Shown here in pieces: positions 3,336-31,663 of a stretch of DNA of 64,000 bases (positions within the stretch are counted from its first letter, which is position 1; each line of letters begins with the position of its first letter). Source of the stretch: Deltaproteobacteria bacterium (GTDB taxonomy: Bacteria > Myxococcota > Myxococcia > Myxococcales > 40CM-4-68-19); contig VBKI01000067.1 in the NCBI GenBank assembly GCA_005879535.1, forward strand, positions 1 through 64,000. The letters are read 5' to 3'. The notes under the pieces are model-generated. The model was not told the origin of the DNA. It worked only from the letters and a program-made list of their open reading frames with translations, and made no database searches. A program made the translations under genes and the position numbers.

Positions 3336-3909
3336 TGGAACCTCCTTGAGCGCGCTTAAACGCACGCTGAAAAAGAACAGTCAAGGCGCTCTGCGGCAAA
3401 GCGACGTCGAATATCAGTTCGTAACGAATGAGCGAATGGAGCTCCATTTTGACGTCATTCATCGGACGGGGCCCTCGTACGCCTGCCCGGCAGGTGAGCT
3501 ACCGCGGGAAATCTTCCAGCTCGCGAGGGCGGCTCCGCCGACGAGGTCGTGGGCGATGGTCGCATGTCTCTGCACGGCGCCTTTCGCAACCAGACGCCGA
3601 CATTGCAGACGATCGCTGGCCCGAGGTCAACGGGACGGGAATTCGGGGACACGATAGTGAATTCGAAGCGGAAATTCGTATTGTGTCCGCCGAATTTCGG
3701 CCCTAAGGCTCGAAGGGATTGAGGCAGTGGCCCGGTTGCGAGGGAGAACCCGAAATCGTCCCTCCGTGCGGGATGCACTAGGAAGGCGGCAGCGTCGCCC
3801 GGCGCTCAGAATGCGCGGCACCGCGACATCGACTGCGCCCTCGCGGCGACGAATCGGCCTAGCGCGAGGGGGCCGAACGGGTTCAACAGCGGCGAACGAG
3901 GCCCTCGGG
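3336..3909. other. Non-coding gap with a palindromic element
   Basis: About 570 bases separate two minus-strand secreted-protein genes. Apart from the ribosome binding site at 3341-3347 and the palindromic element at 3638-3700 I see no gene here. The short open frames do not show protein-like composition or a convincing start. Confidence 0.5.
3638..3700. repeat. REP/MITE-like imperfect palindrome
   Basis: The two halves are inverted copies: AATTCGGGGACACGATAG on the left pairs with the reverse complement of TATTGTGTCCGCCGAATT on the right, with GAATTC/GAAATTC near the centre. The core phrase TTCGGGGACAC.ATA.GAATT resembles the flanks of REP elements mobilised by REP-associated tyrosine transposases, as remembered from other genomes. 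No transposase gene is in the window. Local AT content is higher than in the flanks. Confidence 0.6.
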
Positions 3910-5916
3910 TCAGCGCGGCGACGACGCCGACGTGCCTGGGCGCGTGTTCTCCTGGAGGAACTTGAGGAGGCGGCCGTACATCCGCTCTCGCGCGCCGTCG
4001 TCGAAGAAGCCGTGGCCTTCCTTCGACTCGACCAGCCACTCCGGCGCGTTTCCGCGCGCCGTCAGTGCGTCGCGCAACGATTCGGCATGACGGATGGGGG
4101 CACGCTCGTCCTTGCTCCCGTGGATGAGGAAGACGCGGGCGGCGATCAGGTCCGCGTGCTTCACGGGCGAGGCCTTCGCCAGCGCCTCGCTGTCTTCGCC
4201 GACGACGGTGCGCACGTAGCCGCGACCGAGCCGTCGGAGGCTGATGTCGCCGATCCTGGTCAGCAGGTTGAGGTCATAGATCCCTGAATAGCCCGCGGCG
4301 CAGCGAAAGAGATCTGGAGCGAGGACGGAGCTCTGGATCGCCGCGTAGCCACCGAAGCTCGCGCCGTAGATGCAGATGCGCTTCGGGTCTCCGAACCCCT
4401 TGCGAACGGCGAATCGAGTCGCATCGATGATGTCCTGGACGACGCGATCGCCCCATTTGCGATACCCGGCCTCCTCGTAGGCGAGGCCGTACCCTCCCGA
4501 TCCGCGGTAGTTCACCTGAAGGACGGCAAAGCCCTCGTGCGCCAGGAGCTGCGCCTCGGGATCGAATCGCCACTGATTCCGGACGGAGTGCGGCCCCCCG
4601 TGCGGCAGCACTACCAGCGGCGGCGGCGTGCCGGGCTGCGCATTGGGGGGCATGGTGATGTATCCGTGGATGCGAAACCCGTCGCTTGCGGGAATGTGGA
4701 ACGCCGACATCTCGGCCATCGAATCGGGCTTCACCCAGGGCCGGACGTCCGCAATCGTCTCCGCGGTCATCGTTGCCACGTCGGCCAGGAGATAGCGTCC
4801 CGGGTCCCGGTCGCTGTATACGCGGACCAATGCCTTGCGGTCGTCGTCAGTGGTGCTGACGATCCGGACGTGCTCGTTCGGGTTCGTCACCAGCAGTCCT
4901 TGCAGGATGCGGCTGAGAGGATGAGGGGGGTCGAGATACTCGTACGTCGGTAGATCCGGCTCGTATTCCACGGCGACGATGCGCCCGTTCGAGTTGTCCT
5001 GGACCGCATCGGAGATGGGGGACGTCTCGCTCTTGCTCACGAGCTTGCGTTCGCCGGTGTCGATCGAGACCAGATAAAGAGCGAATCCTTCGGCGGCCGG
5101 CTCGCTCACATACAGCGCGCGCTCGCTCGCGACGAATCCGATGGGAGTGCTCTGGCTGGAGAGACCGCTGATCGACCGGAGCTCGCGCCAGCCCGCGCTG
5201 CCTTCGAAGTAGAAATACCTCGCGTTCGCGTTCTCGTCGATTGCGGCGGCGATGCGCAGTTCGCCGTTCTCGTCGGTGAGGAATTCTGCGTTGCGCAGCG
5301 GGCTGCGCGCGACGAACGTCTTCAGGCCCGTGTACACGTCGAGCTTGTGGACCTCGGGCACGCGGTCGCCGACGTCGTCCATGTAGGTCTGCTGGATGAG
5401 GATCTTGCGGGGATCCTTCCGCAGTGGGCCGATCACGAATCCCCAGGCCCTCTCGGTCGCTGCCTTGCGAATGTGCGAACCCACCTGCTGCTCGCCTGCG
5501 CGATAGCCGAAGATCACGCGCCCGCTCGTCCCTGTCGCGTCCACCGCGTAGATCTCACCGCGCGACACAGGGGCGGCGAGATAGCTTTCGTAATCCACCA
5601 TCTCGATCACGACCCGTTCGTCGTTCGCCCAATAGAAGTCGCCGATGGTGGACTCGCCCTCGGGCCTGAACAAGAAAGTGATCTGACGCGTGGCCAACCG
5701 GATGAATGAGAGGGTGCGCTTGCCGCCTTCCTCCGACAATGCAGCGACGAACGTACCCTTCGGAGACAGCTTGGCCGCGGTCACCATCGCGGGCCGCGTG
5801 AACACGGCGAGCCCGGTGGGGTCGGACTGGGGAACGAGGGGGGACGCGCTCGATTCGACGTGCTTGCACGATGCAGCCAGCGCGGCGAACACGATCAGGA
5901 TGGTGCGGACATGCAT
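3910..5916 (-). CDS. S9 family (prolyl oligopeptidase/DPP-like) serine peptidase, lipoprotein
   Basis: A 668-residue exported peptidase. The N-terminus MHVRTILIVFAALAASCKHV has a lipobox-like AASC, so it is probably anchored in a membrane facing the periplasm. Residues 50-370 form a beta-propeller-like region, and the C-terminal 260 residues are an alpha/beta-hydrolase domain. The nucleophile is in GASFGGY (Ser near 520), the acid in HGSKDERAP (near 600) and the His in EGHGFFDDG (near 636). Family members cleave short peptides, often after Pro or Ala. The gene stands alone with its own upstream region; nothing suggests regulation. Confidence 0.9.
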   Translation of the reverse strand: MHVRTILIVFAALAASCKHVESSASPLVPQSDPTGLAVFTRPAMVTAAKLSPKGTFVAALSEEGGKRTLSFIRLATRQITFLFRPEGESTIGDFYWANDERVVIEMVDYESYLAAPVSRGEIYAVDATGTSGRVIFGYRAGEQQVGSHIRKAATERAWGFVIGPLRKDPRKILIQQTYMDDVGDRVPEVHKLDVYTGLKTFVARSPLRNAEFLTDENGELRIAAAIDENANARYFYFEGSAGWRELRSISGLSSQSTPIGFVASERALYVSEPAAEGFALYLVSIDTGERKLVSKSETSPISDAVQDNSNGRIVAVEYEPDLPTYEYLDPPHPLSRILQGLLVTNPNEHVRIVSTTDDDRKALVRVYSDRDPGRYLLADVATMTAETIADVRPWVKPDSMAEMSAFHIPASDGFRIHGYITMPPNAQPGTPPPLVVLPHGGPHSVRNQWRFDPEAQLLAHEGFAVLQVNYRGSGGYGLAYEEAGYRKWGDRVVQDIIDATRFAVRKGFGDPKRICIYGASFGGYAAIQSSVLAPDLFRCAAGYSGIYDLNLLTRIGDISLRRLGRGYVRTVVGEDSEALAKASPVKHADLIAARVFLIHGSKDERAPIRHAESLRDALTARGNAPEWLVESKEGHGFFDDGARERMYGRLLKFLQENTRPGTSASSPR

Positions 5917-24764: not shown

Positions 24765-25090
24765 AGCTGTTCGAGCTCGCCGAGCTGCGCAGGCGCGGAT
24801 CGGTTCGTTTCTCTCTCGGCCTGGGGCGCGAAGGATTCGCGGTGCTGGACGCGACGGGAACGGTCCGCGCCTACCTCAACATCTGTCCCCATCGCGCCCA
24901 GCCGGTCGACGTCGGCGATGGCCGTCTCTGGCTTGATTCGGGAGAGATCGAATGCCAGGCGCACGGCGCGCGTTTCGATCCGTCGACCGGCGCGTGTCTC
25001 GGTGGACCCTGCGCGGGCCAAGGACTCACGGCACTGACGATAGAGCAACGAGAGGGAGCCGCTTGGACGTGCGCTACGGTCGCCACTTAG
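24761..25090 (+). CDS. Rieske 2Fe-2S ferredoxin-like protein
   Basis: A 109-residue single-domain protein with ICPHRAQPVDVG and EIECQAHGARFDPSTGACLG: the Cys-x-His and Cys-x-x-His cluster ligands (C42/H44, C65/H68) are complete. A further Cys pair (ACLGGPC) follows. It has no signal peptide, so it should be a cytosolic electron carrier or a standalone subunit of a larger oxygenase. The start codon overlaps the adenosyltransferase stop (ATGA). The downstream membrane protein gene overlaps the end of this gene. Confidence 0.9.
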   Translation: MKLFELAELRRRGSVRFSLGLGREGFAVLDATGTVRAYLNICPHRAQPVDVGDGRLWLDSGEIECQAHGARFDPSTGACLGGPCAGQGLTALTIEQREGAAWTCATVAT

Positions 25091-25860
25091 TGTTCGCAGG
25101 TGTCGTCCGCCCCGACCGAACTGTTCTCGTCATCGTTGCCGCCGCGGTCTGGTTGGGTTGCTCTCGACTGGCGTCCAAGGAGGAAGAGCGGACGGGACGC
25201 GAGTTCCTCGCACACGTCGCGCGGGGTGAGCCGATTCCACCGGCGAGAACAGACGCCTCGTTGCGAACCCCGGAAGCCTCGGCCCGGCTGGCCGTTCTGC
25301 AAGATCAACTGCATGGAGTAGACGCAGCATCGGCAGAACGCGTCGGGGTGGGTTCAATGCACGGGCCCGACGATCGCACGCTGGTTTTCTTCGACTTTGC
25401 CGTGACGGGAAGAGATGGGCCCGCATTGGTACGAGTGACGCTCTTGAGAGGCGCAACACCGATTCTGGTCGGCCTTCATGTCCGCGGCCTGACCACCGGC
25501 GGCAGAGCTCCACCGATGACACGTCGCGGAGTTGGAGCCGTCCTGGTCTTGACCAGCCTTATCCTCGCGCCGATGGTTACGCTCATCGCGCTGGTGCGGC
25601 TGTGGCGGGCGCCACGGAGCCGTAAATGGCCTTGGGCATTGTTCATCCTGCTGGGGATCGGGAAGCTGATGGTCAACTGGAACACGGGACAGATCGCGGT
25701 CCAGCTCCTCGCGATCCAATTGTTCAGCGGATCCGTGTTCCAGATGCTGACCGGCGACTGGATACTCGCGGTTTCTCTTCCGCTCGGAGCGATGATCTAT
25801 CTGCTCAGGCCGGAGTTGCTGCCTGCACCCCCGCCTCTCAACCTGCCACCGGATTCTTGA
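25063..25860 (+). CDS. Membrane protein of unknown function
   Basis: The product has one N-terminal transmembrane segment (TVLVIVAAAVWLGCS) and a soluble region of about 130 residues with a DUF-like look (TGREFLAHVARGEPIP). Four C-terminal hydrophobic segments follow (GAVLVLTSLILAPMVTLIAL; PWALFILLGIGKLMV; IAVQLLAIQLFSGS; ILAVSLPLGAMIYLL). The start is uncertain: TTG 25063 overlaps the Rieske frame, while GTG 25090 overlaps only the Rieske stop. No family was recognised. It may be co-transcribed with the Rieske gene. Confidence 0.6.
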   Translation: MDVRYGRHLVFAGVVRPDRTVLVIVAAAVWLGCSRLASKEEERTGREFLAHVARGEPIPPARTDASLRTPEASARLAVLQDQLHGVDAASAERVGVGSMHGPDDRTLVFFDFAVTGRDGPALVRVTLLRGATPILVGLHVRGLTTGGRAPPMTRRGVGAVLVLTSLILAPMVTLIALVRLWRAPRSRKWPWALFILLGIGKLMVNWNTGQIAVQLLAIQLFSGSVFQMLTGDWILAVSLPLGAMIYLLRPELLPAPPPLNLPPDS

Positions 25861-29070: not shown

Positions 29071-29630
29071 AAGATCGCTTCGGCGACGTCCTCCAGCGGC
29101 ACCTGCCCGGCGAGGTTGCCATTCGCCGCTGTGCGCAAGGTGCCGGGGGCGACGCAGTTCGCGCGCACGCCAGAACCCTCGTCCGCGATGCTCCTGGTGA
29201 GCGCGATGACCGCCGCCTTCGACGCGTTGTACGCGGCCGCGCCGGCCATGCCCTGGAAGGTTGCCGCGGTGAGCGCCGCGACGTTGACGATGCGGCCCTC
29301 GCCGCGCATCCGGCGCAGCGCCGCGCGGCAGCAGAGGAACGCCGAGCGCAGATTGATCTCCAGCATCCTCTCGAGAACGTCCACCGAGGTCTGCGCCACC
29401 GTGGCGCCGGCCCAGCCGCCCGCGCAATGGACCGACGCCCAGAGCGGGCCATGGCCCTCGACCGCGTTGTCGTAGGCGCTCTCGACCTGCGCCTCGTCGG
29501 CGAGGTCCGCCTCCTTCCGCGTGAGCGCGACGACGGCGGCTCGCGCGCGCTGCAGCCGGGCGACGACCGCGGCGCCGAGATTTCCCGATGCTCCGGTGAC
29601 GACCACACACCGTCTCTCGATGGTTGACAT
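29007..29630 (-). CDS. Short-chain dehydrogenase/reductase
   Basis: A 207-residue SDR: cofactor motif VVVTGASGNLGAAVVARLQR, the NADP-specificity strand (VALTRKEADLADE), VHCAGGW in place of NNAG, the catalytic Ser-Tyr-Lys region VNVAALTAATFQG and AAAYNASKAAVIALTRSIAD, and VAPGTLRT. The usual catalytic Ser before the Tyr is not clearly placed (the motif reads VNVAALTAATFQG), so activity is uncertain but likely. It is convergent with queG and overlaps it by 64 bases; it is divergent from the EamA gene. Confidence 0.85.
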   Translation of the reverse strand: MSTIERRCVVVTGASGNLGAAVVARLQRARAAVVALTRKEADLADEAQVESAYDNAVEGHGPLWASVHCAGGWAGATVAQTSVDVLERMLEINLRSAFLCCRAALRRMRGEGRIVNVAALTAATFQGMAGAAAYNASKAAVIALTRSIADEGSGVRANCVAPGTLRTAANGNLAGQVPLEDVAEAIFYLVSPEAGAVNGAVLTLAGR

Positions 29631-29662
29631 GGCAGCGCAATCTACGCAGAACGGTTCCGCCG

Positions 29663-30616
29663 ATGCACGCCCGCGCCCGCCCGTCCGCCGTGCTGCTCTA
29701 CGGCGCGTTGGTGGCGCACACGCTGGTTTCGGCGGGGACCTATCTGTTCGCCAAGCGCGCGCTGATGGAGATCCCAGCGCTCCCGCTCGGGCTGCTCCGC
29801 TTCGCAGGGGCCGCGTTGCTGCTCCTGATCCTGCTCCGCCGGGCGCGGCCGGCGGGCGAGCGGTTTCCCCCGCGACGCGAGTGGAAGAAACTGCTCTTCC
29901 TTGCCGCTGTCGCGGTGCCCGTCAACCAGATCCTCTTCCTCTATGGGCTGCAGCTCTCCAGCGCGGCGCACGCCGCGCTCCTGTATACGCTGACACCGCT
30001 CTTCGTCCTGCTGCTCGCGCAGGCACTGCTCGGCGAATTTCCCGGCTGGCGGGCCGCACTGGGAACCGCGCTGGCGCTGGGTGGAACGATCTACGTCCTG
30101 CTCCAGCGAGGAGCGGGCACATCCCGCGAACCGCTGGGCGGGGATCTGCTCCTGCTCATCGCCGTCGTCGCCTGGGCGGTCTACACGGCCGAAGGACGCG
30201 AGGTGGTGGGAAGGCTGGGCGCATTTCCCACCATCGCCTGGACGGTCATCGCCGGAACGGTTCTCTATCTCCCGCTCGGATTGGGCGCGCTCTTGAGCCC
30301 GTCCTACCGGGCGGACATCGCGCACGCCTCGCGGGAGGCGTGGTGGGGCATCGCCTATCTGATCGTGATGACGAGCGTCGTCGCGTACCTGCTCTGGTAC
30401 TGGGCGCTCGCCCATCTCGCCGCGGCCCGTGTCGCCATCTTCACCAACCTGCAGCCGCTGGCTACGGCGTTGCTGGCACAGGTCCTTTTCGGCGAGCGCG
30501 TGACCGCGGGATTCTACGTCGCGGCGGCGGTGGTGATGGGCGGCGTGCTGCTGGCGCAATGGCGTGCGACGGACGCGGCGGAAGAGGCACTGCTGGAATC
30601 GCCGGCGAAGAGCTGA
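29663..30616 (+). CDS. EamA/DMT-family drug or metabolite exporter
   Basis: A 317-residue protein of two EamA repeats and ten hydrophobic helices. It opens MHARARPSAVLLYGALVAHT, with the typical HTLVSAGTYLFAKRAL. The first repeat ends with SSAAHAALLYTLTPLFVLLL and the second with LAAARVAIFTNLQPLATALL, which is the conserved EamA 'A......TPL....L' pattern. It probably exports an amino acid or other small metabolite, unspecified. The upstream start at 29624 overlaps the divergent SDR gene, so 29663 was preferred. Confidence 0.85.
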   Translation: MHARARPSAVLLYGALVAHTLVSAGTYLFAKRALMEIPALPLGLLRFAGAALLLLILLRRARPAGERFPPRREWKKLLFLAAVAVPVNQILFLYGLQLSSAAHAALLYTLTPLFVLLLAQALLGEFPGWRAALGTALALGGTIYVLLQRGAGTSREPLGGDLLLLIAVVAWAVYTAEGREVVGRLGAFPTIAWTVIAGTVLYLPLGLGALLSPSYRADIAHASREAWWGIAYLIVMTSVVAYLLWYWALAHLAAARVAIFTNLQPLATALLAQVLFGERVTAGFYVAAAVVMGGVLLAQWRATDAAEEALLESPAKS

Positions 30617-30619
30617 CGC

Positions 30620-31663
30620 TTACCGCGAGCGGCGCATCGCCGCGATGTAGAACCCGTCGCTGCCGTGACGGTGCGGCAGCAGCTGCACTTCCGCGCCGGC
30701 GCCGAGACCTGTCGCCTCTGGCAAGACCTGGGTCGGCTCGAATTCCGGATGTGCAGAGAGGAATGACGCGCGCACCTCCTCGTTCTCGCCCCGGTTGATC
30801 GAGCAGGTGGCGTACACCAGCCGGCCCTTGTTGTGCATCTCGGAAGCGAGGGCGAGCGCCTTCCCGCCGGCGCCTGCGCAGGCGTCGACCACCACCTGGC
30901 CGGGCCGGGCCTCGCAGGCAAGCGCGACCAACTGGCTCCCTTCGTCCTGCACCTCGAAGAGGCCCGCCTTGAACGCGCGCAGCGCGAAGACGTTGGTGCG
31001 TCCCGTGAACGTGACGCCCCAAGGCGAGAACCGGGTCGGCTCGACCCGCGATCCTTCGGTGCGGAGGATCGCGAGCAGCTCATCGCGTGAGCTCTTCAGG
31101 AGATTCGCGCGCACCGTCAGCGGAGCGCGCTGGTTCAGCGCTGCGGCGAGCGCGCGAGTCTCCGCGGCGCCGAGCTGCTCGCTCCACAATTTCGCCAGCC
31201 ACCGCGGGAGCGAAGTCTCGGCCGCAAGCGCGTCGAGAGGATCTTCGGGAACGCCGAGCGGCTCCGGTCCAGCCACGAGCTCGAGCGCCCACTGCCACGG
31301 CCCGACCTCCGGGCCCGCGAGACCTGCGGCGCTGGCGGCCGATTGCCGCTCGCCCGCGATCAGGTATGCCGCGTAGCGGAGCAGGTGCTGCGTCGGAGTC
31401 GCCAGCTTTTCCAGCGCCAGCTTGCGGGTGCCGAGCGCGCGCTGCAGAAGGTGGTCGACGCGCCCCTGCAGTCGCAGCAGCCCGTACACCGCATCGGAGA
31501 CGGCGCGCCGCTCCACGCTGCGAAGCTGCTTCTCGCGCCGGAGCACGCGCTGCAGCGCCTGGTCCGCGCGCGCTCCCTCCCGGCGGACTTGCTCGTAGAT
31601 CTCCAGTACGGCCATGCGGACCAGCTGCGTTCTCACGGCGCCGCTTCTCGGACGCTGACGCAC
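30620..31663 (-). CDS. rsmB: RsmB-like (NOL1/NOP2/Sun) rRNA methyltransferase with internal deletion
   Basis: The N-terminal NusB-like domain (MAVLEIYEQVRREGARADQA) and the C-terminal SAM-dependent methyltransferase part (VDACAGAGGKALALASEM, motif I) are clear. RsmB methylates C967 of 16S rRNA using two cysteines, one in a DAPCSG motif and one in a TCS motif. Here motif I (GGKALALASEMHNKGR) is followed immediately by LVYATCSINRGENEE, so the intervening 70-90 residues, including DAPCSG and the acidic SAM residue, are missing while the frame is kept. Protein length is 347 against about 430 normally. Function is probably lost or altered; it may be a deletion, or an assembly error. Confidence 0.7.
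   Translation of the reverse strand: MRQRPRSGAVRTQLVRMAVLEIYEQVRREGARADQALQRVLRREKQLRSVERRAVSDAVYGLLRLQGRVDHLLQRALGTRKLALEKLATPTQHLLRYAAYLIAGERQSAASAAGLAGPEVGPWQWALELVAGPEPLGVPEDPLDALAAETSLPRWLAKLWSEQLGAAETRALAAALNQRAPLTVRANLLKSSRDELLAILRTEGSRVEPTRFSPWGVTFTGRTNVFALRAFKAGLFEVQDEGSQLVALACEARPGQVVVDACAGAGGKALALASEMHNKGRLVYATCSINRGENEEVRASFLSAHPEFEPTQVLPEATGLGAGAEVQLLPHRHGSDGFYIAAMRRSR

Follow-up and report, generated by a model that had tools for sequence, protein, structure and literature searches.

An RsmB-like gene that lacks its catalytic block

Why does an RsmB-like gene with an otherwise sound reading frame lack precisely the segment that carries its catalytic residues, and did this loss take place in the organism or in its assembly? 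The gene lies in the window, by which we mean the whole 64,000-nucleotide stretch of DNA analysed here (genome G000, from a soil bacterium resembling myxobacteria). The initial annotation had proposed that the DAPCSG catalytic region was lost in a clean in-frame manner while the rest of the frame stayed intact, and the open reading frame bears this out. Its translation of 347 residues contains no internal stop, and motif I (VVDACAGAGGK...NKGR) runs straight into LVYATCS of motif VI (Table 1). Motif IV (DAPCSG) with its conserved cysteine is present in all orthologues and absent here. The acidic SAM residue at the end of β2 is missing as well, with the orthologues' ACDRD segment falling in the gap. 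The gene retains the ferredoxin-like part (PF22458) found in the RsmB/RsmF/NOP2 m5C methyltransferases, and its motif VI cysteine (C287, in YATCS) is invariant in a 26-row alignment. Judged by their translations, the neighbouring genes are an EamA-type transporter gene (29624–30616), arranged tail to tail with the RsmB-like gene, and a TolC-like gene (from 31716), arranged head to head with it.

Table 1. Features of the RsmB-like gene, in window coordinates.
Feature	Position	Strand	Details
RsmB-like paralogue, internally deleted	30620..31663	-	ORF, 347 aa, GTG start
NusB-like N-terminal helical part	31358..31618	-	Pfam PF01029, 21.3 bits against a cut-off of 23.1; all-helical in the model, high confidence
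RsmF/B ferredoxin-like domain PF22458, intact	30989..31207	-	59 bits, cut-off 27
Motif I VVDACAGAGGK (SAM loop), sequence kept	30860..30892	-	Strand no longer predicted there
Deletion junction, 12-bp GGCCGGCTGGTG (G-R-L-V), fused copy of two near-repeats	30815..30826	-	297 bp missing relative to orthologues
Motif VI LVYATCS with second conserved Cys, kept	30800..30820	-	Alignment with orthologues

The genus and family yielded 10 orthologues, all of the long form, with a block of about 95–101 residues between NKGR and LVYATCS. None of them has the same short form, and a search of 194 other genomes of the phylum gave no match to the junction-spanning pattern. The nearest orthologue is a 448-codon frame in G005 (L006 = L035; MNFJ01000006.1, MAG Deltaproteobacteria bacterium 13_1_40CM_4_68_19). 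Relative to this reference, the loss amounts to 297 bp, or 99 residues, which exceeds the 70–90 residues (200–270 bases) originally estimated. The missing block comprises β2 to β4, the acidic SAM residue and DAPCSG with its cysteine.

The gene is a paralogue of RsmB

Against the RsmB model TIGR00563 (cut-off 269.05), the window copy scored 141 bits and its intact G005 orthologue (L006) 235.7, compared with 343.3 for L001, a gene on G000 contig C34. A second RsmB model, NF011494 (cut-off 319), gave 281.1 for the intact orthologue and 384.8 for L001. The identification of the window gene as RsmB was rejected, since even the intact orthologue remains below every RsmB model cut-off and L001 passes both. 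L001 is the canonical RsmB of this genome and is intact, with DACAAPGGK, DAPCSG and the motif VI cysteine. The search for a second rsmB, which had been recommended at the outset, also located L002 on contig C3, another RsmB/F-like gene with all motifs present. Because L001 and L002 are intact and the window gene fails the RsmB models, the window gene represents a third, RsmB-like paralogue. It is not the RsmB of the genome. No second copy of the window gene was found in G000, where the other RsmB-type matches are about 34% identical or less.

The paralogue resembles RsmB, the 16S rRNA m5C967 methyltransferase, in its layout of a putative NusB-like part, a ferredoxin-like part and an RsmB/F methyltransferase domain and in motifs I and VI, but the window copy has neither motif IV nor the SAM acid. 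Its closest kin are the members of a Myxococcales RsmB/NOP-family paralogue with DACAGAGGK (L006–L015, L035–L049). Within this family, identity is 68–88% over the retained part, and the neighbours are conserved, with the EamA gene on one side. The 99-residue gap occurs only in the window copy, whereas the copy in G006 has a different gap of 42 residues. A literature search found no paper specific to this RsmB-like paralogue. Annotating the window gene as RsmB would wrongly imply the loss of a conserved rRNA modification. With the canonical RsmB and a further RsmB/F-like enzyme both intact in G000, m5C967 would be expected to be unaffected. The m5C967 assay once suggested as a probe would not report on the deletion, as the gene concerned is not RsmB.

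A short direct repeat at the borders of the missing block

The window DNA aligns to G005 in two BLAST segments that share exactly 12 bases at the junction (30815–30826; GGCCGGCTGGTG on the coding strand). This matches the earlier prediction of a GGCCGGCTGGT-like direct repeat near 30811–30826. In the nearest orthologues, the two border 12-mers are identical at 10 of 12 bases (L006, G005) and at 11 of 12 (L014, G006). They rank with the best-matched repeats of the gene; only 10 of the 470,070 pairs of 12-mers lying 60–600 bp apart in L014 are equally good. Both border repeats are read as G-R-L-V in one and the same frame, so that a deletion between them is automatically in frame. An in-frame outcome imposed in this way provides no evidence for a kept function.

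We conclude that a non-essential RNA methyltransferase paralogue of the RsmB/NOP type has probably lost its function through a recent, repeat-mediated deletion. Two near-identical 12-base stretches, one where the motif I helix ends and the other where the motif VI strand starts, would have recombined or slipped, and one repeat copy would have been lost together with the 285 bases in between. The product would keep the NusB-like and ferredoxin-like RNA-binding parts and, lacking Rossmann strands β2–β4 together with the SAM acid and the cysteine of motif IV, should not methylate. In E. coli, deletions between short direct repeats can arise independently of RecA (PMC5426353). The window case is similar to bacterial direct-repeat deletions in that a short direct repeat is found at both borders and one copy remains, but it comes from one assembly only, in which slippage is the presumed process. 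Two marks of a recent pseudogene are present, namely long relatives and a short repeat at the borders. Such an event is largely ordinary in kind, and the true RsmB gene is intact elsewhere in the genome. If real, the deletion would show that this lineage can do without one of its conserved paralogues of RsmB type. It would also show that the in-frame G-R-L-V codons of motifs I and VI amount to an inherent repeat that is prone to deletion in GC-rich genomes.

Predicted structure and activity of the short form

AlphaFold places strands at residues 257–260, 281–286, 307–311, 327–333, 375–385 and onwards in the intact orthologue (pLDDT 93, pTM 0.89). Of these, the deletion removes strands two to four, and both the acidic SAM residue and the cysteine of motif IV go with them. 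For the short form, the model lacks β1, and its confidence falls to 66–75 around residues 261–280 near the junction, compared with 93–97 over this region in the intact orthologue. The N-terminal part (250 residues) is unchanged and modelled with high confidence. RsmB/NOP-family methyltransferases employ a two-cysteine mechanism, which makes catalysis by the short form very unlikely.

Selection on the retained codons

The dN/dS of the window copy relative to G005 and to G006 is about 0.12 (283 shared codons), similar to values between the relatives. No excess of private substitutions was seen: of 173 positions that are otherwise invariant, two carry a private change. From these comparisons, the retained codons appear to be under normal purifying selection. 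No acceleration indicative of relaxed selection after the event was measured, and none would be expected if the event were very recent. The lack of decay beside the deletion signifies that the deletion is young relative to the split of the species, or is not real, or that the short protein is still used.

The last of these options would have the short protein kept as a catalytically dead RNA-binding factor consisting of the NusB-like and ferredoxin-like parts. This would agree with the open frame, the low dN/dS over the retained codons and the confident model of the N-terminal 250 residues, and the loss of motif I in G006 would be a parallel case. However, the low dN/dS spans the whole divergence from active-looking relatives and shows no post-deletion selection, three strands are gone from the Rossmann part, the repeats impose the in-frame state, and no relative has the short form. 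We regard such a role as improbable. A wider version would make the truncated protein a working RNA-binding relative of RsmB that has no catalytic activity, and would see motif loss as recurrent in the genus, with one species lacking the motif IV block and another lacking motif I; it appears more improbable still. The initial annotation had left the choice between a newly inactivated gene and a non-catalytic role; new inactivation is the best reading, given the long relatives, and the in-frame state lends no support to the role.

Genuine deletion or assembly misjoin

Recent loss of function ranks as the most likely explanation and a local misassembly as the second most likely. In the latter case, two contig ends or reads with some 12 bases in common would have been merged over a coverage gap or a strain variant, and the organism would have a full-length gene. 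G000 includes contigs as small as 253 bp (253–508 bp), which suggests a short-read assembly, and the remainder of the window gene shows no decay. Furthermore, G006, a related metagenome bin, has two clean in-frame deletions within 2.5 kb, which could be a product of assembly behaviour instead of two independent losses. Against a misjoin stands the length of the overlap, as the k-mer sizes usual in assembly are far above 12 bases. In addition, nothing comparable was found on the G000 side: across about 109 kb of G000–G005 alignment and a sample of 88 orthologous ORF pairs (31,326 aa), the window deletion is the only clean in-frame deletion there. A single such event therefore speaks against a generally error-ridden G000 assembly. 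The literature on assembly deletions at short overlaps offered nothing useful. Taken together, we consider a misjoin possible but rather unlikely.

Some points count against the preferred reading of a recent loss of function. It relies on a single assembly, and the lack of decay also fits an artefact. Moreover, purifying selection has maintained the orthologue throughout the genus and family, so that its loss is not obviously harmless.

Length differences at other sites

The orthologue in G006, another member of the genus (L014/L167, G006:C533:2594–3811), has an independent 126-bp in-frame deletion, which removes motif I and has almost no border repeat. The EamA gene adjoining it (L167 about 3827–4324, C533) has a 489-bp in-frame deletion with an overlap of about 14 bases at an L-P-L-G-L repeat; the EamA gene is intact in the window. 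The window has about 800 bp at positions 25013–25860, in place of which G005 and G006 each have about 45 bp. At a lipoprotein-like gene on G000 contig C10 (L160 10607–12197), G000 has stretches of 805 and 335 bp that are cleanly missing in G005. A further clean difference of 534 bp, present in G000 relative to G005, lies on G000 contig C60 (L232 3665–4197) and encodes 178 aa in frame within an ORF.
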